Notes under the pieces: model-generated
Databases searched by the model: none
What the model saw: only the letters and a program-made list of their open reading frames with translations
Told to the model about the DNA's origin: nothing
In this document: piece by piece, positions 24,422 to 32,320 of the stretch
How the letters are laid out: every line of letters starts with the position of its first letter
Numbering within the stretch: the stretch's first letter is position 1
Assembly (NCBI RefSeq): GCF_017742995.1
Contig: NZ_CP072426.1
Coordinates: 806,001 to 870,000, forward strand
Direction of reading: 5' to 3'
DNA length: 64,000 nt
Source of the DNA: Pseudoalteromonas viridis
GTDB lineage: Bacteria > Pseudomonadota > Gammaproteobacteria > Enterobacterales > Alteromonadaceae
Position numbers and translations under genes: made by a program

Positions 24422-25522
24422 ATGAGCCGAGATTTAACCTATGATGGCCTGAGAGGCTGGTTGCTAATCATTATTGCCTGCAACCACTTGTTTGGCAGCT
24501 TTGTTACTCAGTTTACCCGTACTCCGCTGGGGTTTGTGTCGGCCGCCGAGGGATTTGTGTTTTTATCCGGATTTGTGGCTTATCTGGTGTATGGTCGACT
24601 GGCCAGTGATAACAAAACAATGCAACGCAAAATATGGCGCCGCTGTTGGGTCATTTACGGGTTTCATCTGAGCGCAATTGTTGTCTGCTTTTCGCTGGTG
24701 GCGCTGTTTCCTTTATATATCCCGCAGTGGTCTGATTTTTTTAATGCCGCTAACTGGTTTAGCAACCCCTTTCAAAGTGCTTTGTCTGCCGCCTTACTGC
24801 TTGAGCATCCTGGTTTTCACGATATTCTGATCCTTTATCTGGTGCCTATGGCATTTCTGCCTTTTGCTATCCAAGTACTTAAACGCGGCAAAGCCTGGTA
24901 TGTGGTTGCCACTTCCTTGTCAGTCTGGCTGCTGGCCCAGTTTGTCACCGCTGAGTTTTTAGCAGCGCCATTTAGCCGGGTGTTTAGCGATATTACCCTG
25001 AACGTTAGCCATTTTGATCCCTTCGCGTGGCAGATTTATTTTTATCTGGGTGTGATGCTCAGTTATCTGAAGTTTGATAAAGGCTATACCTTTACATTTA
25101 CCCCTGTGGTGAGAATATTGCTGCTAAGCGGTGTGGGCTGCTTTTTTGTTATTAAACATGGCTACCCAGAGCTGATGCAACCCTATTTTGCGGGCCACGG
25201 CAGCGCCTCTGTGCTCTATCAGCTTAATTTGCTGCTGAGCTCGTATTTAATCATGCTGCTGATGCGGCGTTTTTCGTGGTTTTTTACCCTGAGATACCCG
25301 GTATTTATCGGCCAGCATGCCCTACCGGTTTTCGCCTTTCACTGCGTGGTGATTTACTTTTTACTGCCCTGGAGTCATGCATATACCACAGCCCAGTGGT
25401 ACTGGGATGTGTTGGTTTGCATCGGCTTTGTGGGCCTGCTTGCAATCCCGGCTAAACTGGACGCGCGCTGGCGGGCACATTTCAGCACAAACACAGCAAC
25501 GATGAGGACATCAAAAGCCTAA
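24422..25522 (+). CDS. OpgC-like membrane acyltransferase
   Basis: A 366-aa polytopic membrane protein with about ten helices. The opening LTYDGLRGWLLIIIACNHL, with an Asp-Gly-Leu-Arg-Gly motif, then TPLGFVSAAEGFVFLSGFVAYLVYG, matches the OpgC domain family (succinyl transfer to periplasmic glucans in model species) and the broader acyltransferase-3 class. No glucan synthase genes are nearby, so the acceptor is unknown. AAGGAGAGAAC precedes the ATG. It is followed 116 bp later by the lanthipeptide-like precursor gene, without evidence that they share a function. Confidence 0.8.
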   Translation: MSRDLTYDGLRGWLLIIIACNHLFGSFVTQFTRTPLGFVSAAEGFVFLSGFVAYLVYGRLASDNKTMQRKIWRRCWVIYGFHLSAIVVCFSLVALFPLYIPQWSDFFNAANWFSNPFQSALSAALLLEHPGFHDILILYLVPMAFLPFAIQVLKRGKAWYVVATSLSVWLLAQFVTAEFLAAPFSRVFSDITLNVSHFDPFAWQIYFYLGVMLSYLKFDKGYTFTFTPVVRILLLSGVGCFFVIKHGYPELMQPYFAGHGSASVLYQLNLLLSSYLIMLLMRRFSWFFTLRYPVFIGQHALPVFAFHCVVIYFLLPWSHAYTTAQWYWDVLVCIGFVGLLAIPAKLDARWRAHFSTNTATMRTSKA

Positions 25523-25562
25523 GCGCTTAGCGGTTAATCCCAAAGAAAGGGAACACACTGTA

Positions 25563-25590
25563 TTGACAATCCATAACCAGATGTTAACTT
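25563..25590 (+). promoter_or_regulatory. Possible sigma-70 promoter of the precursor peptide gene
   Basis: A perfect -35 TTGACA (25563-25568) is followed, after 16 bp, by a weak -10 TAACTT (25585-25590). It lies about 50 bp upstream of the ATG at 25639. Confidence 0.35.
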
Positions 25591-25638
25591 CGAACATGAA
25601 AGGTACAAAAGTCAAACTGAAATATTAAGGAAAATACG

Positions 25639-25806
25639 ATGAAACTCAATTTAAACAAAAAAAGCATTAAATCTTTGAGCACTGGCCGCAAGCAACTACC
25701 TAATGATGCAACACCGGCCGTTGCCGGCGGCAGATTAACCGATCGCTGTTCACGCTATTGCCAAACCATCGACTTTGAACAGTGCGTCACCACCATTGAG
25801 CCTTAA
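25639..25806 (+). CDS. Lanthipeptide-like RiPP precursor with double-Gly leader
   Basis: A 55-aa peptide. The leader opens MKLNLNKKSIKSLS and ends ATPAVAGG (residues 24-31), a double-glycine cleavage motif. The 24-residue candidate core, RLTDRCSRYCQTIDFEQCVTTIEP without the final residues, carries three Cys (37, 41, 49) and several Ser/Thr. The Lys/Asn/Leu-rich start is what is often annotated as class I lanthipeptide precursor in marine bacteria. No LanB/LanC, radical-SAM or exporter gene is in the window, so modification and export would depend on genes elsewhere. AAGGAAAATACG precedes the ATG. It is the first of a run of small peptide genes. Confidence 0.7.
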   Translation: MKLNLNKKSIKSLSTGRKQLPNDATPAVAGGRLTDRCSRYCQTIDFEQCVTTIEP

Positions 25807-25903
25807 TCACTGAGTGTTACCTTGCTGTGCGTTCTCCTGATGCCAAACATGCATCGTTAAATACAAGACAGTGCGTTAAACAGCACAGGTATAAACCTAC
25901 AAA

Positions 25904-25969
25904 ACCAGACAGATCAGTGGCAGTTTAAACCACTATGATGTGTCCAAGTTAAAGGATTACGAAAAATGA
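25904..25969 (+). pseudogene. Relict 3' end of XRE-type regulator gene, unit 1
   Basis: In frame it reads ...RQISGSLNHYDVSKLKDYEK-stop, matching the C-terminus of the intact regulator at 28138 (RQISGGVDSAKGSKLQDDE-stop). The stop TGA overlaps the ATG of the 61-aa ORF (ATGA), as expected for an old translational coupling. Confidence 0.7.
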
Positions 25970-26151
25970 AAAAGATACGCTCACTTACATTTCTAACTAA
26001 ATTGGCTTCTCTGACTAACTTAACAGGTAAGGAGAAGGGCCAAGCTCTGAGTAACAAAAAAACCTTATCTACTGACCAGGGGGCATTGATATCGGGTTAC
26101 GGTATTTATGAACCTACTGATCCTCGCGTCTCAGGTGCTTTTAAGCGGTAA
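25966..26151 (+). CDS. 61-aa peptide, array copy 1 (candidate precursor peptide)
   Basis: A 61-aa ORF opening MKKIRSLTFLTKLASLTNLT and ending GIYEPTDPRVSGAFKR. The N-terminal half is basic and amphipathic. The middle segment LSTDQGALISG resembles the LSxEExxxIxG part of double-glycine leaders, followed here by Tyr rather than Gly. It would leave a short core of about 17 residues (inference). The copy differs from copy 3 at seven positions; residue 45 is Tyr where copies 2 and 3 have Cys. AAAGGATTACGAAAA precedes the ATG. No known family recognised. Confidence 0.65.
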   Translation: MKKIRSLTFLTKLASLTNLTGKEKGQALSNKKTLSTDQGALISGYGIYEPTDPRVSGAFKR

Positions 26152-26167
26152 AGCCAGACGCTTCAGA

Positions 26168-26266
26168 TGCAAAATAGATACACACTCTTTACTCAATAAA
26201 ATCAGACAGATCAGTGGCAGTTTAAACCACTGTGATGCGTCAAAATTAAAGGATTACGAAAAATGA
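26168..26266 (+). pseudogene. Relict 3' end of XRE-type regulator gene, unit 2
   Basis: An open 32-codon frame, CKIDTHSLLNKIRQISG then SLNHCDASKLKDYEK-stop, aligns without gaps to the C-terminus of the intact regulator at 28138 (CKIDTKSMLNQIRQISG then GVDSAKGSKLQDDE). The stop overlaps the next ATG. The frame is intact but lacks its own start and HTH domain. Confidence 0.8.
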
Positions 26267-26448
26267 AAAAGATACGCCCACTTACACTTCTCACTAAATT
26301 GGCTTCTCTGACTAACTTAACAGGCAAGGAGAAGGGCCAAGCTCTGAGTAACGAAAAAATCTTATCAGCTGGTCAGGAGGGATTAGTATCTGGTTGCGGT
26401 ATTTATGAACCTAATGATCCTCGCGTCTCAGGTGCTTTTAAGCAGTAA
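26263..26448 (+). CDS. 61-aa peptide, array copy 2 (candidate precursor peptide)
   Basis: A 61-aa paralogue of the copies at 25966 and 26559: MKKIRPLTLLTKLASLTNLT start, LSAGQEGLVSG leader-like segment, then CGIYEPNDPRVSGAFKQ. It differs from copy 3 at five positions (P6, L9, I33, N51, Q61). Residue 45 is Cys. Same ribosome-binding site and ATGA overlap with the preceding regulator relict. High conservation of length and frame across three copies argues that the ORFs are real and selected. Confidence 0.65.
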   Translation: MKKIRPLTLLTKLASLTNLTGKEKGQALSNEKILSAGQEGLVSGCGIYEPNDPRVSGAFKQ

Positions 26449-26464
26449 AGCCAGACGCTTCATA

Positions 26465-26561
26465 CGCAAAATAGATACACACTCTTTACTCAATAAAATC
26501 AGACGCAACATAGCAGTTTAAACCGCTATGATGCGTCAAAATTAAAGGATTACGAAAAATG
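26465..26561 (+). pseudogene. Relict 3' end of XRE-type regulator gene, unit 3 (frameshifted)
   Basis: It begins RKIDTHSLLNKIR in frame, then a 1-bp deletion relative to unit 2 ends the frame at TAA within the loop of an inverted repeat (26502-26537). The downstream part SKLKDYEK is still recognisable in the shifted frame. Confidence 0.75.
26502..26537. repeat. Near-perfect inverted repeat, unit 3
   Basis: GACGCAACATAGC (26502-26514) and GCTATGATGCGTC (26525-26537) pair over 13 bp with one mismatch around a 10-nt loop AGTTTAAACC. It ends 21 bp upstream of the 61-aa start at 26559. Units 1 and 2 have only a rudimentary version. Confidence 0.75.
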
Positions 26562-26744
26562 AAAAAGATACGCTCACTTACATTTCTAACTAAATTGGCT
26601 TCTCTGACTAACTTAACAGGCAAGGAGAAGGGCCAAGCTCTGAGTAACGAAAAAACCTTATCAGCTGGTCAGGAGGGATTAGTATCGGGTTGCGGTATTT
26701 ATGAACCTACTGATCCTCGCGTCTCAGGTGCTTTTAAGCGGTAA
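26559..26744 (+). CDS. 61-aa peptide, array copy 3 (candidate precursor peptide)
   Basis: The third 61-aa copy: MKKIRSLTFLTKLASLTNLT, GKEKGQALSNEKTLSAGQEG, then LVSGCGIYEPTDPRVSGAFKR. Cys45 follows the SG of the leader-like segment. It is preceded by the near-perfect hairpin of unit 3 and the standard AAAGGATTACGAAAA ribosome-binding site. The three copies may be expressed from one promoter upstream of unit 1 or individually. Function unknown; peptide signal, bacteriocin-like precursor and small antitoxin-like protein are all open. Confidence 0.65.
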   Translation: MKKIRSLTFLTKLASLTNLTGKEKGQALSNEKTLSAGQEGLVSGCGIYEPTDPRVSGAFKR

Positions 26745-26760
26745 AGCCAGACGCTTCAGA

Positions 26761-26853
26761 TGCAAAATAGATACACACTCTTTACTCAATGAAATCAGAC
26801 GCATCATAGCAGCTTAAACCGCTATGATGCGTCAAAGTTAAAGGATGACGAAG
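26761..26853 (+). pseudogene. Relict regulator tail and leader of an interrupted fourth unit
   Basis: CKIDTHSLLNEIR is readable, then the frame is lost in the perfect inverted repeat. The leader AAAGTTAAAGGATGACGAA is closer to the leader of the 158-aa gene at 28449 (AAAGTTACAGGATGACGAA) than to units 1-3 (AAAATTAAAGGATTACGAA). The peptide ORF that should start at about 26855 is replaced by IS66 sequence. Confidence 0.7.
26798..26833. repeat. Perfect 13-bp inverted repeat, unit 4
   Basis: GACGCATCATAGC (26798-26810) and GCTATGATGCGTC (26821-26833) pair perfectly around a 10-nt loop. It is the end point of a series from an imperfect pairing in units 1-2 to a perfect hairpin in unit 4. Confidence 0.8.
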
Positions 26854-27126
26854 TTCGGCGCTGAGTGTAACGACGTCATCGTCTTATTTGTCGGGCCATT
26901 TAAACTTGTCTTTTTCAAGGCGCTTATACCACAAGGCAAAACCGGTTTTATCCCAGTACAGTACCTTCAGCTTGTCCTTGTTTTTATTGCAATACGCAAA
27001 CACCTGGCCGCTCATCGCGTGTGCAGCCATTTCTTGCTCAACAATCGCCACGAGGCCATTGGTGGATTTACGAAAGTCCACTGGCTGGCGGTGCAAGTAA
27101 ACAGACTCATTGTGCCAGCAGATCAT
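26854..27126 (-). pseudogene. tnpB: IS66 accessory protein TnpB, broken
   Basis: It reads MICWHNESVYLHRQPVDFRKSTNGLVAIVEQ (shown in part) through VLYWDKTGFALWYKRLEKDKFKWP, diagnostic of IS66 TnpB. A TAA at 26884-26886 interrupts it; beyond the stop the frame continues DDDVVTLSAEL, recognisably the family C-terminus, up to the junction at about 26854. Its ATG overlaps the tnpA stop (ATGA), the usual IS66 coupling. Confidence 0.82.
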
Positions 27127-27425
27127 GACAGCGCCCTGAGCAGTGCAGCTAACCACTGAGCGTCAGTGTTTGATGGCAACAACACCGTACTCTGACCATG
27201 CTTGAGCTGCAACAACTCAGGCAGAGAAGCGGACTGAGATGCATCAGGCTTGGCGGCAATAAAAGATGACTCAGGTGGTTTTTAACTGCGAAGCTTACTT
27301 CGGCGATTATAAAAAGACTTGGTACTGAGATTGTGCTGCGTGCAGAAGTCAGTGACAGACAAACTACTGAGTTCCTGTTGTTCGATAAGTTTCAGCCATT
27401 GCTGTGCGGCTTTGTGTTTAGGCAT
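27123..27425 (-). pseudogene. tnpA: IS66 accessory protein TnpA, nonsense-interrupted
   Basis: It starts MPKHKAAQQWLKLIEQQE and holds a helix-turn-helix typical of IS66 TnpA (SVTDFCTQHNLSTKSFYNRRSKLR). A TAA after 47 codons (27282-27284) interrupts it; the same frame then continues for 52 codons (KPPESSFIAAKPDASQ...) to a TGA at 27123. A single nonsense substitution accounts for the break. Confidence 0.8.
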
Positions 27426-27552
27426 GGTCAGCTCCGAGTTGAGATCAGAGCTGTACTTTATAAGCTGAGCGTATTCAGTAGCTAGGTGGTGTTCAGGTGA
27501 AGCTTACGATGATAAGACGGCCAGACCAAAGTACTTCGCCCGGTTTACGGCT

Positions 27553-27843
27553 TTATTCCTGAAGGCATCCATCCTTGTTTTTGGTCTTATTTTGCTCAGA
27601 AAACAAAATATCCGGGCAGGAAAAGTCTTCACCAAACATCAAATATAATTCGTATACGTGCTCTATGGTCATCACAGAGCGGCCCGACTCAAAATTACTA
27701 ATGGTAGACTGATCCACGTTAAGCTTAGCGGCAAGCTGAGCCTGGGAGAGTTTGTTTTTATATCTCAAATTTCGCAGGTTGCACTGCAAACGCCCCATCA
27801 GCTTATTGATTCTCTGTTTTCTGGCAAATGCATCGTTTTTCAT
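27553..27843 (-). CDS. XRE-family helix-turn-helix regulator
   Basis: A 96-aa protein with a Cro/CI-type HTH (about 24-78): LRNLRYKNKLSQAQLAAKLNVDQSTISNFESGRSVMTIEHVYEL. No sensor domain; the C-terminus (about 80-96) is short and charged. AAAGGATTAGGCT precedes the ATG at 27843, the same ribosome-binding layout as the peptide genes. It is divergent from the XRE/peptide/membrane cassette starting at 28138, with 294 bp between them, so it may repress itself and the cassette. Confidence 0.85.
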   Translation of the reverse strand: MKNDAFARKQRINKLMGRLQCNLRNLRYKNKLSQAQLAAKLNVDQSTISNFESGRSVMTIEHVYELYLMFGEDFSCPDILFSEQNKTKNKDGCLQE

Positions 27844-27993
27844 AGCCTAATCCTTTTACACGCTTGTATATTGGCCTGCACAAGCGCTGACCGTGTTTTT
27901 ATCGGATACACCTGAAAAGCAGCGTTTCAGGCACATCCACCGAGTTAATCTGTTGGAAAAACCGCTCTCAATGTAAACGCCCTGTTGACCTTT

Positions 27994-28003
27994 TTAACGT
28001 TAA
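27994..28003. promoter_or_regulatory. Palindrome TTAACGTTAA between divergent XRE genes
   Basis: A perfect 10-bp palindrome in the 294-bp intergenic region. A further inverted repeat, GTTGC-GATT-GCAAC, lies about 40 bp to its right. Both are plausible operators for the XRE proteins. The rest of the intergenic region shows no ORF. Confidence 0.35.
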
Positions 28004-28088
28004 GAAATATCGTGTAACTCACAGTCCCGCACGGCTGTTAGTGTTGCGATTGCAACGAAATAAATTGATATCTCTAACTTAAGTCAGT

Positions 28089-28116
28089 TTGACATGTTCC
28101 GTTTTTGTATTAACAT
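28089..28116 (+). promoter_or_regulatory. Probable sigma-70 promoter of XRE/peptide cassette
   Basis: A perfect -35 TTGACA (28089-28094), a 16-bp spacer and a -10 TAACAT (28111-28116). The implied start near 28123 leaves a leader of only about 15 nt before the ATG at 28138, in keeping with the lack of a strong ribosome-binding site there. Confidence 0.5.
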
Positions 28117-28137
28117 TGCGACTTTCTTGTTAAGATT

Positions 28138-28449
28138 ATGTTCATTCGAATGTGGAAAAGTCTCCGCATTCCAATAAAAAAAGGAAAAAAGGACGTGATA
28201 GATGGCGATGATTTAAAGGCAATGAGGAAAAACGCCGGCATATCCCAGGAACTGATGGCAAAAAAGTTAGAGTGCGACCGAAAGACAATCAGTAACTATG
28301 AGCAGGGTGTCAGTGACATTAAGTCTAAACAGCTTTTTCGCTGGCTGATGCTTTGTAAAATAGATACTAAGTCTATGCTTAATCAGATCCGACAAATTAG
28401 CGGCGGTGTAGATAGCGCTAAAGGATCAAAGTTACAGGATGACGAATAA
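28138..28449 (+). CDS. XRE-family HTH regulator, first gene of peptide cassette
   Basis: A 103-aa protein with HTH at about 25-78 (LKAMRKNAGISQELMAKKLECDRKTISNYEQG). Its C-terminal 35 residues (CKIDTKSMLNQIRQISGG...SKLQDDE) are what recur as relicts upstream of each 61-aa peptide gene in the array at 25901-26853. The stop TAA shares a base with the ATG of the next gene (TAATG), so regulator and downstream protein are translationally coupled. A second Met (residue 5) is an alternative start; neither has a strong ribosome-binding site. Likely DNA-binding regulator of its own cassette. Confidence 0.82.
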   Translation: MFIRMWKSLRIPIKKGKKDVIDGDDLKAMRKNAGISQELMAKKLECDRKTISNYEQGVSDIKSKQLFRWLMLCKIDTKSMLNQIRQISGGVDSAKGSKLQDDE

Positions 28450-28925
28450 TGAAAAAGGTAAACCCCTTTGGCTTTGTGCAATTTTTTCCCCTCTGCAAAC
28501 GATTCCTTATTACAATAAGAACTAGAATATGTATGCCAGTTAATAGTGGCACTGGCCCTTTTAAGACAGATAGGTCATTTGAGGGAAACGATCCAGGATT
28601 GAATGTTTGCAAGAGTGAAATTGAGGCCTATAAACCACAAGCCGCCTCTAGAAATATGGTTGGAAAGCGGTTGAACCATGAACTAACAACCAACATCTGT
28701 CTAGCTGTTAACGGTGGTGTTGGCCCATGGAAACCAGTAAAGCCTGCCAATTTCAACCAGCTCGAAGGCAAGGCACCGACTTCATCTAAACCAGCCGCGC
28801 TAACTCCTGTACAATGTAGGAGTGTTTTTGGTGCTGGGCCATACAAGCCAATTCGTCCAAGTCAAGCAAGAGCTCTGAGTACATCAGATCTAAACTTAAG
28901 TAAGGATAACTGGGATAAAAAATGA
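28449..28925 (+). CDS. 158-aa protein with repeated Cys-GPxKP motifs (candidate multi-core peptide precursor)
   Basis: An unrecognised, basic, low-complexity-leaning protein. Three related blocks recur: CMPVNSGTGPFK (28-39), CLAVNGGVGPWKP (84-96) and CRSVFGAGPYKP (123-134). A weaker fourth block is CKSEIEAYKP (54-63). Each has Cys, a Gly-rich turn, then aromatic-Lys(-Pro); spacers are variable and polar. There is no signal peptide. The start MKK and the leader AGGATGACGAATA match the small-peptide genes of the array. It is coupled on both sides: TAATG with the regulator, ATGA with the membrane protein. Repeated short motifs in a regulator-linked ORF suggest a multi-core precursor or a repeat scaffold; function is not known. 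Confidence 0.7.
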   Translation: MKKVNPFGFVQFFPLCKRFLITIRTRICMPVNSGTGPFKTDRSFEGNDPGLNVCKSEIEAYKPQAASRNMVGKRLNHELTTNICLAVNGGVGPWKPVKPANFNQLEGKAPTSSKPAALTPVQCRSVFGAGPYKPIRPSQARALSTSDLNLSKDNWDKK

Positions 28926-29521
28926 AAGTTTCACATTTAATTGTGCTAAGCATTTTCGCTCTAGCATTTTTTTATATACAAATCTGGAATCATGAAGTTG
29001 TCGCACCAATCTTCCTCACCCTGCTTTGCAGCAGTGTGATGTATGGAATGTACAGTCGCGATATCAATATAACTCACATATCTTTGATATTATTATTTAT
29101 TCACGCTTTGGAATACGTTATTTTTGTTATGGGAATAATTGACATACTAACCCCTGTAGAAGATCAACTTATTCACGGTACTCTGGTTTTTGGAGTTCAA
29201 CTTATAATTAGTCTATGCGCATTTTTCATTCTTGTCTTTCGAGTTCAAGTGTCTAGATTTTTGTCTAATTCTAAGAATATTAAGTTGACCTATTTCGACG
29301 GGATCTTTCACTGGCTATTCTTGCTACTATCTGTAATAAACCTTTTAGCATTAATAGAGAATATACTTTGGTCCTACTTTGGCCTAAAATCCATTACCTT
29401 TATCTATGATAGCTTCGAGCCCCTTAATTACATTATTTGGTCTCTCACATGTGGAGCTATACTGGCAATGATCATCATCTCAGTTAAATCATCCCCACCT
29501 CAAGAACCAGAGATTTCCTAA
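28922..29521 (+). CDS. Multi-pass membrane protein of peptide cassette
   Basis: A 199-aa hydrophobic protein with about six predicted helices (near 5-22, 26-43, 52-72, 88-110, 130-150, 168-190) and a short Pro/Glu-rich tail (SSPPQEPEIS). No family motif recognised. Its ATG overlaps the previous stop (ATGA). The gene is visibly A+T-richer than the flanks, with many ATA and TTA codons, suggesting horizontal acquisition. By position it could be an immunity protein, exporter or sensor for the upstream peptide product (inference). Confidence 0.7.
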   Translation: MKVSHLIVLSIFALAFFYIQIWNHEVVAPIFLTLLCSSVMYGMYSRDINITHISLILLFIHALEYVIFVMGIIDILTPVEDQLIHGTLVFGVQLIISLCAFFILVFRVQVSRFLSNSKNIKLTYFDGIFHWLFLLLSVINLLALIENILWSYFGLKSITFIYDSFEPLNYIIWSLTCGAILAMIIISVKSSPPQEPEIS

Positions 29522-29541
29522 CAATCAATAGTAGCGGAAGA

Positions 29542-30465
29542 TCAATTAGCATTATGCACCCGCTTTATTTCTTCTATCAGCGCCTCAGCCAATGGTGAGG
29601 TGCTGTTGCTTTTTGACGTGATCAGCATCACCGGGATCTGATAGGCGTATTTTTCTGCTTGTATGGCTCTGAATATGCCTTTATCGACCCAGTAGCTGGC
29701 ATAGTGTTCGGGCAGATAGCCGATAAACTCGCCGGACAATATTAAGTGGGCAATGCCTTCATCATGATAGGCAATGGCGCTGTTTTGGTAATTAAGGCCA
29801 TCATTACGTACTTCTTTATCGCGCAGATAGTTACTGGTGATCACCTCAGCCTCGGCCAGTAGTGCCTCTAATTTTGCACTGTCGCTTTCGGCCACATCAT
29901 CTTCCAGCAGTTCAAACAAGGGATGACCCTGCGCACAATATAAATAGTTGTACTCGTTATGCAGCGGATAATAGTCCAGGCCGCGCAGCTGATGGCGGCT
30001 CACGCCCAGCCCCACCAGAGAGCGGCCGTTTACCACTGAGGTTTCGACTTCACGGGCTTCACACACCTGGATATCAAACTGAATATTGCCACCGCGCGCT
30101 TTGAGCGCCGAAATGGCCCGTGCCACGCCACAGCGGGGATCGCTGACCATAGTGTCTATGGTGGCAATGGTCACCCTTCCAGAGAGTTCATTTTTAGAAC
30201 TGGCGACGGTACTGGCAAAGGCCTCACATTGCTGTAACAGCTCTAAAGAAGCCTGATAAGTCACCCTGCCCGGCTCAGTCAGCTCAAAGCCGCTGCGCCC
30301 GCGTTTACATAATTTCAGGCCCAGCCGCACTTCCAGGTCCGACAGATGCGAACTTATGGTCGAACGGCCGATGTTCAGACGCGACTCCGCAGCCGACAGT
30401 CCGCCGCATTCCACGATAGCGACAAAGATCCTCAGTAGTCTTAAATCAACGTCTTGTACCTGCAC
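29542..30465 (-). CDS. LysR-family transcriptional regulator
   Basis: A 307-aa LysR regulator: an N-terminal winged HTH (about 5-65, LRIFVAIVECGGLSAAESRLNIGRSTISSHLSDLEVRLG), then a substrate-binding domain from about residue 92. The 3' end follows the small-peptide island by 21 bp. It is divergent from hutHU but separated from it by the repeat array of about 2 kb, so control of hutHU is possible but not shown. Confidence 0.9.
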   Translation of the reverse strand: MQVQDVDLRLLRIFVAIVECGGLSAAESRLNIGRSTISSHLSDLEVRLGLKLCKRGRSGFELTEPGRVTYQASLELLQQCEAFASTVASSKNELSGRVTIATIDTMVSDPRCGVARAISALKARGGNIQFDIQVCEAREVETSVVNGRSLVGLGVSRHQLRGLDYYPLHNEYNYLYCAQGHPLFELLEDDVAESDSAKLEALLAEAEVITSNYLRDKEVRNDGLNYQNSAIAYHDEGIAHLILSGEFIGYLPEHYASYWVDKGIFRAIQAEKYAYQIPVMLITSKSNSTSPLAEALIEEIKRVHNAN

Positions 30466-30522
30466 GCGTATTTACCTCTTTTATTTATGTCTTGTAATGC
30501 TCCGGCCGACTCTATTTCTTCC

Positions 30523-32180
30523 GTCAAATTTAACACCCAAGTTGCCGGTGAGTAGTTCCCGCATCAAGTGCGGGATGACCGGAGTTGGGCGCTGATTGAC
30601 CGGAGTTGAGTGCAGGAGAGCTGGAATTGAGTGCCGAATGACGAAGCATAACAACATACTAATCAAACTATCCACCATCACACCTTTTCACGAAAACCTA
30701 CCCTTTTCTCCCGTCATCCCGGCCTTGAGCCGGGGTCTGCGCCCAGACTATTCAGCCGTCTGTTTTAACACCCAAGTTGCCAGTGAGTAGTTCCCGCATC
30801 AAGTGCGGGATGACCGGAGTTGGGTGCTGATTGACCGGAGTTGAGTGCAGGAGAGCTGGAATTGAGTGCTGAATGACGAAGCATAACAACATACTAATCA
30901 AACTATCCACCATCACACCTTTTCACGAAAACCTACCCTTTTCTCCCGTCATCCCGGCCTTGAGCCGGGATCTACGCCCAGACTATTCAGCCGTCTGTTT
31001 TAACACCCAAGTTGCCGGTTGGTAGTTCCCGCATCAAATGCGGGATGACCGGAGTTGGATGCGGGATAACAGGATGTACAGACTAATTGCATAGTATAAG
31101 TGCAGCCATTTAAATTCTTTCACCATCTGAGCTAAAACGAAAGACTCACCCTCTACTTCCGTCATCCCGGCCTTGAGCCGCGATCTACGCCCAGACTATT
31201 CAGCCGTCAAATTTAACACCCAAGTTGCCGGTGAGTAGTTCCCGCATCAAGTGCGGGATGACCGGAGTTGGGCGCTGATTGACCGGAGTTGAGTGCAGGA
31301 GAGCTGGAATTGAGTGCCGAATGACGAAGCATAACAACATACTAATCAAACTATCCACCATCACACCTTTTCACGAAAACCTACCCTTTTCTCCCGTCAT
31401 CCCGGCCTTGAGCCGGGGTCTGCGCCCAGACTATTCAGCCGTCTGTTTTAACACCCAAGTTGCCAGTGAGTAGTTCCCGCATCAAGTGCGGGATGACCGG
31501 AGTTGGGTGCTGAATGTCCGGAGTCGGGTGCAGGAGAGCTGGAATTGAGTGCTGAATGACGAAGCATAAAAGCACACTAATCAAACTATTCACCATCACC
31601 CCTTTTCACGAAAACCTACCCTTTTCTCCCGTCATCCCGGCCTTGAGCCGGGATCTGCGCCTAGACTATTCAGCCGTCAAATTTAACACCCAAGTTGCCG
31701 GTGAGTAGTTCCCGCATCAAGTGCGGGATGACCGGAGTTGGGTGCGGGATAACAGGATGTACAGACTAATTGCATAGTATAAGTGCAGCCATTTAAATTC
31801 ATTCACCATCTGAGCTAAAACGAAAGACTCACCCTCTACTTCCGTCATCCCGGCCTTGAGCCGGGATCTACGCCCAGACTATTCAGCCGTCAAATTTAAC
31901 ACCCAAGTTGCCGGTGAGTAGTTCCCGCATCAAGTGCGGGATGACCGGAGTTGGGCGCTGATTGACCGGAGTTGAGTGCAGGAGAGCTGGAATTGAGTGC
32001 TGAATGACGAAGCATAACAACATACTAATCAAACTATCCACCATCACACCTTTTCACGAAAACCTACCCTTTTCTCCCGTCATCCCGGTCTTGAGCTGGG
32101 ATCTGCGCCCAGACTATTCAGCCGTCAAATTTAACACCCAAGTTGCCGGTTGGTAGTTCCCGCATCAAGTGCGGGATGAC
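30523..32180. repeat. REPIN-like array: seven 102-bp doublets plus a partial one, with a 683-bp higher-order period
   Basis: Each ~102-bp element starts GTCATCCCGGCCTTGAGCCGG and ends TTCCCGCATCAAGTGCGGGATGAC (listed in part), so it has terminal inverted repeats GTCATCCCG/CGGGATGAC, each arm with its own small hairpin: a REP doublet. Element starts: 30713, 30948, 31161, 31396, 31631, 31844, 32079; a partial copy lacking the left arm is at about 30523-30580. Spacers are of two kinds: A (about 133 bp) and B (about 111 bp), in order A-A-B-A-A-B-A, giving a 683-bp higher-order repeat. Short ORFs in it are by-products. Confidence 0.85.
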
Positions 32181-32320
32181 CGGAGTTGGGTGAGGGATGA
32201 CCGGAGTTGGGTGCTGAATGTCCGGAGTCGGTGCCGACATAACCGGAGTTGAGTTCAGGATGACCGAGGTTAAACGTACACTGTTCAACCAAAACGACAC
32301 CTCTTACTCGCTCGAACTTT

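Follow-up and report, generated by a model that had tools for sequence, protein, structure and literature searches.

A regulator, peptide and membrane protein cassette of Pseudoalteromonas viridis and an adjoining, most likely fossil tandem array derived from another allele

Introduction

Signalling by peptides with double-glycine leaders has been described mainly for Gram-positive bacteria, in which kinases act as receptors. One of these receptors, ComD, is described as a protein with six transmembrane segments and three extracellular loops (PMC4873836). According to the account in PMC6363468, the pockets of C39 proteases accept the leader positions -4, -7 and -12, and a Glu at -8 belongs to the recognition sequence of ComA. 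Double-glycine leaders are likewise found in class II microcins, whose confirmed immunity proteins are given as 51–216 aa long (PMC9746304). Here, we describe a three-gene cassette of Pseudoalteromonas viridis that shares traits with both kinds of system. It is located in a stretch of 64,000 nucleotides (contig NZ_CP072426.1, positions 806,001 to 870,000; the window) from a genome of 5.55 Mb in two contigs. The cassette encodes an XRE regulator, a peptide precursor and a six-helix membrane protein, and upstream of it lies a tandem array of truncated units. We are confident about the anatomy of the cassette and the fossil nature of the array taken by themselves. The complete proposal, that is, an intact three-gene cassette, junction copies of a different allele and an exported-peptide circuit, is put forward tentatively, as quite possible and short of probable.

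The intact cassette

The intact locus consists of the three genes listed in Table 1. An initial annotation of this DNA had proposed an ancestral layout with a regulator coupled to a small protein. This layout is indeed conserved in relatives and comprises three genes, the third being 28922-29521. Conservation of the arrangement in related genomes was confirmed: In Pseudoalteromonas cassette loci, a regulator gene is followed by a short peptide gene, which mostly overlaps or touches the regulator stop, and by a gene for a membrane protein of about 199 aa. In a first reading, 21 of 22 cassettes have a peptide open reading frame (ORF) between regulator and membrane gene; a second reading covered 35 of 40 loci, all with such an ORF, and the two sets overlap. 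The regulator is partial in L058 (first cassette), L065 and L066. At four of the 40 membrane-family loci (L076, L077, L098 and L099) no regulator match was found, and in L097 the regulator match runs directly into the membrane match. Truncated helix-turn-helix (HTH) fragments are present directly behind the membrane gene in L050 (6411-6614) and L052 (4751-4888) and are probably remnants of a second cassette.

The start of the regulator had been placed at ATG 28138. Most likely, it is GTG 28195, because relatives have an upstream TAA or match only from residue 10 and because a relative of 84 aa (P0001) exists; the alignment of regulator starts used the same motif and is no independent proof of the GTG start.

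None of the PADLOC models matched the peptide, the membrane protein, the fusion protein (see below) or the array ORF at E 0.01; the regulator had eight weak matches through its HTH (best 9.8e-6). No Rfam family was found in 25500-29700, and, judged by titles and abstract starts, the literature searches yielded no paper that describes this cassette.

The tandem array

The initial annotation had reported three 61-aa ORFs repeated at about 296 bp, a fourth unit that lost its ORF and a relict of the regulator end before each ORF. All of this stands. The ORFs are spaced by 297 and 296 bp in the ORF list, and unit 4 comprises only the relict tail and ends beside a remnant of IS66. At the DNA level, the relicts of units 1 to 4 score above the best of 300 shuffles (14, 11, 12 and 13, respectively; scores in Table 1). 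As had been claimed, the tail in unit 2 aligns to the regulator (61% identity over 31 residues; tblastn E 6.3e-8). It alone is open to its stop, while the tails of units 1, 3 and 4 are truncated or frame-shifted. The overlap between regulator stop and next ATG, said to be common to array and cassette, is present in both, but the sequences differ: TAATG at the intact cassette and ATGA in unit 2.

An origin of the array from a regulator-peptide junction is supported, yet the source is not the neighbouring cassette, as the initial annotation had assumed. The units match another allele, which is intact in the genomes G099 and G033. The G099 cassette shows 92% DNA identity to the array over 292 nt and 83-98% identity over 59 residues of the peptide start; the intact G033 allele is 88% identical at the aa level. 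The array is present at the same place in G041, a second species, with two full units, a partial unit, a remnant of another one and the IS66 remnant. All five full units, three in the window and two in G041, have one single-base deletion compared to G033 in common, which ends the array ORF after the first core, and their junction to the regulator tail is identical. The simplest inference from these sequences is that a copy of a 296-bp stretch, spanning the regulator end up to the first core, arose and was amplified before the two species diverged.

Might the array still be functional and supply short single-core peptides, either decoys or additional signals belonging to another allele? Its three ORFs are open, each has a Shine-Dalgarno-like AAAGGA, and two species carry the array. 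However, open frames are uninformative here, since by chance alone they should contain about one stop. In addition, the units are truncated by deletion, the array ends at the IS remnant and it holds no copy of the candidate operator. The substitutions fit neutrality as well: The 24 changes inferred on the majority sequence of six copies comprise 8 synonymous and 16 nonsynonymous ones (neutral expectation 29% synonymous; p = 0.82, low power). Pairwise dN/dS values are 0.3-0.95 between array copies, except for a single pair at 1.26; against G033 they are 0.36-0.51. Counts this low leave room for weak constraint. We consider a functional array improbable. The array was also considered as a selected peptide family, and this candidate was dropped, as no departure from neutrality was seen. 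The initial view of peptides that were 'multiplied and diversified' is not upheld either, given the shared deletion and junction and the neutral substitution ratio.

Even less credible is a role of the array as a store of silent cassettes, from which recombination would replace the peptide at the active locus. In favour of such a reservoir, homology to the regulator end spans about 100 nt in unit 2 and less in the other units, and the active locus is strongly divergent from species to species. Against it, the units show no homology to the membrane gene on their downstream side and, being nearly identical, would offer little variety. Most likely, the array represents a fossil, derived as a truncated tandem copy from the regulator-peptide junction of another allele; it would add nothing or little to the function of the cassette.

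Two structural features were observed at the array. A near-perfect 36-bp palindrome is located at 26798-26833 in unit 4; it is nearly perfect in unit 3 and in the G041 units and, as judged by eye, is missing from the intact alleles of G033 and G099. It looks like the result of quasi-palindrome correction. At the upstream edge, a terminator-like hairpin (25886-25930, by eye) follows the gene of a 55-aa precursor-like peptide whose leader ends in VAGG (25639-25806, + strand). In the window it is cut at the array edge, so that read-through into unit 1 is conceivable. The matching hairpin of G041, located by eye at about 5540-5560 of L044, is whole; it was not among the terminators reported by a scan of that locus.

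Table 1. Features of the cassette, the array and their surroundings (positions in the window)
Feature	Position	Strand	Remarks
XRE regulator, 84 aa	28195..28449	+	GTG start most likely; HTH_19 and HTH_3 above cut-off
Peptide precursor, 158 aa	28449..28925	+	three core-like repeats
Six-helix membrane protein, 199 aa	28922..29521	+	no Pfam/NCBIfam family; found only in Pseudoalteromonas
Operator-like inverted repeat	28150..28169	+	only match in window; 0 in 100 shuffles
Promoter-like site TTGACA-16-TAACAT	28089..28116	+	consensus match only
Tandem array	25901..26852	+	Tandem Repeats Finder: period 296, 3.2 copies, 92% matches
Unit 1, regulator 3'-end relict	25914..25965	+	5' part missing; DNA score 24
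Array ORF 1, 61 aa	25966..26151	+	leader and truncated first core
Unit 2, regulator 3'-end relict	26168..26266	+	open to stop overlapping next ATG; tblastn; DNA score 41
Array ORF 2, 61 aa	26263..26448	+	98% identity over 59 aa to intact G099 peptide start
Unit 3, regulator-tail relict	26464..26558	+	frame-shifted; DNA score 20
Array ORF 3, 61 aa	26559..26744	+	
Unit 4, relict tail only	26760..26852	+	then interrupted; DNA score 20
IS66 remnant	26884..27425	-	at array end; TnpB and TnpA-like ORF
TnpB of IS66 remnant	26884-27156	-	PF05717, 5.4e-31; NF033819
TnpA-like ORF of IS66 remnant	27282-27425	-	ORF list; occurs in G041 too
Second XRE regulator	27553..27843	-	divergent from cassette; homologue in 23/41 cassette loci, window included

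Peptide precursors, leaders and export

34 precursors were picked by hand from the loci that had been read; the near-copies L064 and L094 and three further genomes were left out. A pattern that required G[GACS] and a K or R yielded 47 core sites, a few of which look mis-registered. It missed six of the 34 precursors, in which a core-like stretch is visible by eye. Hydrophobic residues occupy leader position -12 at 43, position -7 at 38 (Cys allowed) and position -4 at 43 of the 47 sites, and all three positions at 35; when residues were shuffled within the leaders, the best of 2000 rounds reached 8 of 47 sites with all three. Together with G[GAS] at -2/-1, these are the features of a double-glycine leader, and the hydrophobic positions agree with the pockets of C39 proteases. 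The cores are short and rich in K/R and P, and KPPR is frequent. By the pattern, one up to five cores are found per precursor, each with its own leader. In the precursor of the window, cores start at about 28551, 28719 and 28836; two of them were caught by the pattern and the first one by eye. The smallest precursors (33-43 aa) are plain leader-core peptides. Two of these have near-chance, below-cut-off matches to a bacteriocin leader model and an enterocin induction factor (E 0.1 and 0.15).

The P. viridis genome encodes one C39 transporter, beside genes for a lantibiotic dehydratase, a LanC-like and an HlyD-type protein. Among the matches listed, the smallest distance between a C39 gene and a membrane gene sharing a contig is about 19 kb (G102), which places the exporter outside the cassette. 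The VAGG peptide upstream of the array has 12 matches in its own genome, itself included, and one LanB/LanC/C39/HlyD cluster is located in L124 (G000:C1:1208000-1222000); the picture is that of a single lanthipeptide machinery whose many precursors are dispersed.

These data bear on two readings. The peptides may be signals, the reading favoured here, or the locus may specify a bacteriocin or microcin: The cores would be proline-rich antibacterial peptides, the membrane protein would confer immunity, and the XRE regulator would repress the operon until induction. The double-glycine-type leaders, a C39 transporter and an HlyD-type protein in the genome and the two near-chance matches to bacteriocin-type models point in the direction of a bacteriocin, while the distance of at least about 19 kb between C39 and membrane genes, among the matches listed, points away from it.

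The membrane protein and its fusions

Both hydropathy (22 aligned proteins) and an AlphaFold2 model (mean pLDDT 88.4, pTM 0.82) indicate a bundle of six long helices. Inside and outside were assigned by hand from charges; by the positive-inside rule, the N-terminus would be cytoplasmic, and so would the loop at alignment columns 107-132. This loop is the most conserved one, with a mean pairwise identity of 0.69 compared to 0.36, 0.37 and 0.52 for the outer loops. In the 22 relatives, Pfam gave only scattered weak matches (best E 0.0046, in two of them) and no kinase or receiver domain, and neither domain was found in the regulator. No sequence relative better than E 0.24 was present in the PDB, and in a fold comparison of the model no solved structure stands out among helical bundles. 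Plasmid and phage records contained no relative of the membrane protein.

Regulator and membrane protein are also found as one polypeptide. Ten fused HTH-membrane proteins were recognized by motif among 45 distinct regulator starts, and 11 were aligned when L049 is counted. At least 11 fusions retain HTH and membrane domain without a peptide between them. When 34 membrane domains are placed in a tree, the fused state has to change four times, and well-supported branches force at least two of these changes; the fused domain T1lg23B is almost identical to the free one of P. byunsanensis. The model of a fused protein shows the HTH followed by the bundle at moderate confidence (pLDDT 75). Since fused and free forms occur, an action of the membrane protein on the regulator is favoured. 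For an immunity protein, at least 11 fusions devoid of a peptide would be odd, and so would be the conservation peak in a cytoplasmic loop. On the other hand, a multi-helix membrane protein of 199 aa beside a peptide lies within the size range of microcin immunity proteins.

Regulatory elements

The operator-like inverted repeat in front of the intact regulator is the sole such site in the window. This leaves the initial suggestion that the array peptides are 'under one remaining regulator' without support. The genome contains one exact and one single-mismatch site. The repeat precedes at least 10 of the 45 regulators, several of them alleles of one locus, and is therefore not general. Promoter-like sites such as the one in Table 1 are not in excess (seven found, 8.3 in shuffles). 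The homologues of the second XRE regulator are located upstream and divergent in some loci and downstream in others. Their occurrence in 23 of 41 cassette loci suggests that this gene is a fourth, looser member of the system.

Distribution and variability

The regulator was found in 20 of 99 genomes, all from the genus of the window. The named relatives of regulator and membrane protein belong to Pseudoalteromonas, with P. rubra among the nearest. Of 99 genomes of the genus, 40 carry the membrane family, and the matches are strong in 30 of these; its 40 loci in named species genomes are all from Pseudoalteromonas. In an order-wide draw of 295 genomes, with up to 10 candidates scored per genome, the family was found in two, both from the same genus. 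Similarly, a protein search in which 8000 candidates were scored gave 12 matches, and all eight named ones are Pseudoalteromonas. The very divergent loci L023 and L022 have the same gene order and short peptides; the L023 membrane protein is a family member, and that of L022 shares only 17-24% identity, by which kinship is not shown. L103 (G000:C1:1947659-1948921, - strand) encodes two tandem distant relatives of the membrane protein, and no XRE gene was found among the neighbouring same-strand ORFs with a length of 60 aa or more. Similar distant matches are present elsewhere in the genus.

Variability was assessed by comparing the window with five other genomes that have the same neighbourhood. 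The flanks are 83-99.8% identical: OpgC 83-95% (in four of five), the divergent XRE 85-96%, a gene which we take to be LysR-like 91-99% and a presumably HAL-like one 99.6-99.8% (in four of five). Within the cassette, the HTH is 90-94% and the membrane protein 46-54% identical, and the peptide can be aligned in one of the five genomes (27%). Comparable variability is known both for pheromone types and for pairs of bacteriocin and immunity protein. That peptide and membrane protein vary like alleles also supports the bacteriocin reading and does not choose between the two.

Two further elements were noticed. A tandem repeat with a period of 235 and 7.4 copies at 30521-32214 contains small ORFs recurring on both strands. 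The ORF 27282-27425 was called TnpA-like on the assumption that it follows the usual IS66 layout; an ORF of TnpC size is absent from the ORF list at this remnant.

A working model

How might the three genes act together? The precursor would be cut at its double-glycine-type leaders, and the cores would be exported by a C39 ABC transporter encoded elsewhere in the genome. With its variable outer face, the 199-aa protein could recognize the released cores, and through its conserved cytoplasmic loop it would in turn alter the XRE regulator. The regulator would control its own operon, probably via the inverted repeat 28150-28169. Such a circuit would carry a strain-specific peptide signal and work without a kinase. 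In its favour are the peptide ORF between regulator and membrane gene in nearly all cassettes read, the leader positions that suit C39 proteases, the fusions, the conserved cytoplasmic loop, the divergence of peptide and membrane protein between similar flanks, the confident helical bundle of the AlphaFold2 model and the neutral drift of the array. A C39 transporter, moreover, is encoded in 40 of 40 genomes with the membrane family and in 21 of 59 without it (Fisher p 2.5e-12).

Several findings weigh against this model. Glu at -8 is not conserved in the leaders, and the first core of array-type peptides has GC or GY in place of GG. L060 contains no recognisable peptide. The only C39 gene of P. 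viridis belongs to a lanthipeptide cluster, and the co-occurrence of C39 transporter and membrane family is a statistic that ignores relatedness. With identities of 0.53 for the second cytoplasmic loop and 0.65 for TM6, the contrast between inside and outside is partial. The L049 fusion has diverged and lost the conserved loop. The operator-like repeat was not seen before all 45 regulators, and with three mismatches allowed, the genome has three sites, compared to three and three for the reversed control. Finally, allelic variability and a small membrane protein fit a bacteriocin with an immunity protein, too.

In sum, the exported-peptide signalling circuit is preferred as a tentative reading, and the bacteriocin with an immunity protein is a close second possibility. 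A more general proposal is rather doubtful: a kinase-free, Gram-negative mode of peptide communication, in which a polyprotein with repeated double-glycine leaders and short proline-rich cores gives rise to a family of signals, a hyper-polymorphic six-helix receptor acts directly on an XRE repressor or is fused to it, the type is switched by a swap of peptide and receptor at one locus, and the other type is kept as a fossil.

Comparison with known systems

If the model is true, the XRE/six-helix module, which occurs fused and split, would be a simple new way of sensing a secreted peptide, or else the cassette would represent a new bacteriocin family. The fossil array would be the trace of an older or foreign allele beside a polymorphic locus.

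ComCDE and Blp of streptococci, as far as their descriptions go, resemble the cassette in combining a double-glycine peptide with an adjoining six-segment membrane protein and in their allelic signal types (pherotypes). In contrast to them, no histidine kinase or response regulator domain was found in this cassette by Pfam, its regulator is of the XRE type and sometimes fused to the membrane domain, and its precursors can hold several leader-core repeats. Orphan toxin/immunity modules beside loci for contact-dependent inhibition or Rhs are displaced allele fragments near an active polymorphic locus. The array shares this position; unlike those modules, its units are near-identical, truncated and drifting, and reuse is not evident.

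Class II microcins and bacteriocins are described with a GG-leader precursor, an adjoining small membrane protein and a C39 exporter (PMC9746304), and the same elements occur in the P. viridis genome. Here, too, a GG-leader precursor is encoded beside a small membrane protein, whose inner-membrane location is deduced from its helices only. The cassette differs by an XRE gene that overlaps or adjoins the peptide gene, by the fusions, by repeated leader-core units and by the non-adjacent exporter. The multi-precursor double-glycine RiPPs (ribosomally synthesized and post-translationally modified peptides) of the LahT/prochlorosin type, in the account of PMC6363468, offer a parallel for export, as one tolerant C39 exporter could serve many precursors. 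The repeats of the Pseudoalteromonas cassette, by contrast, are located inside one precursor.

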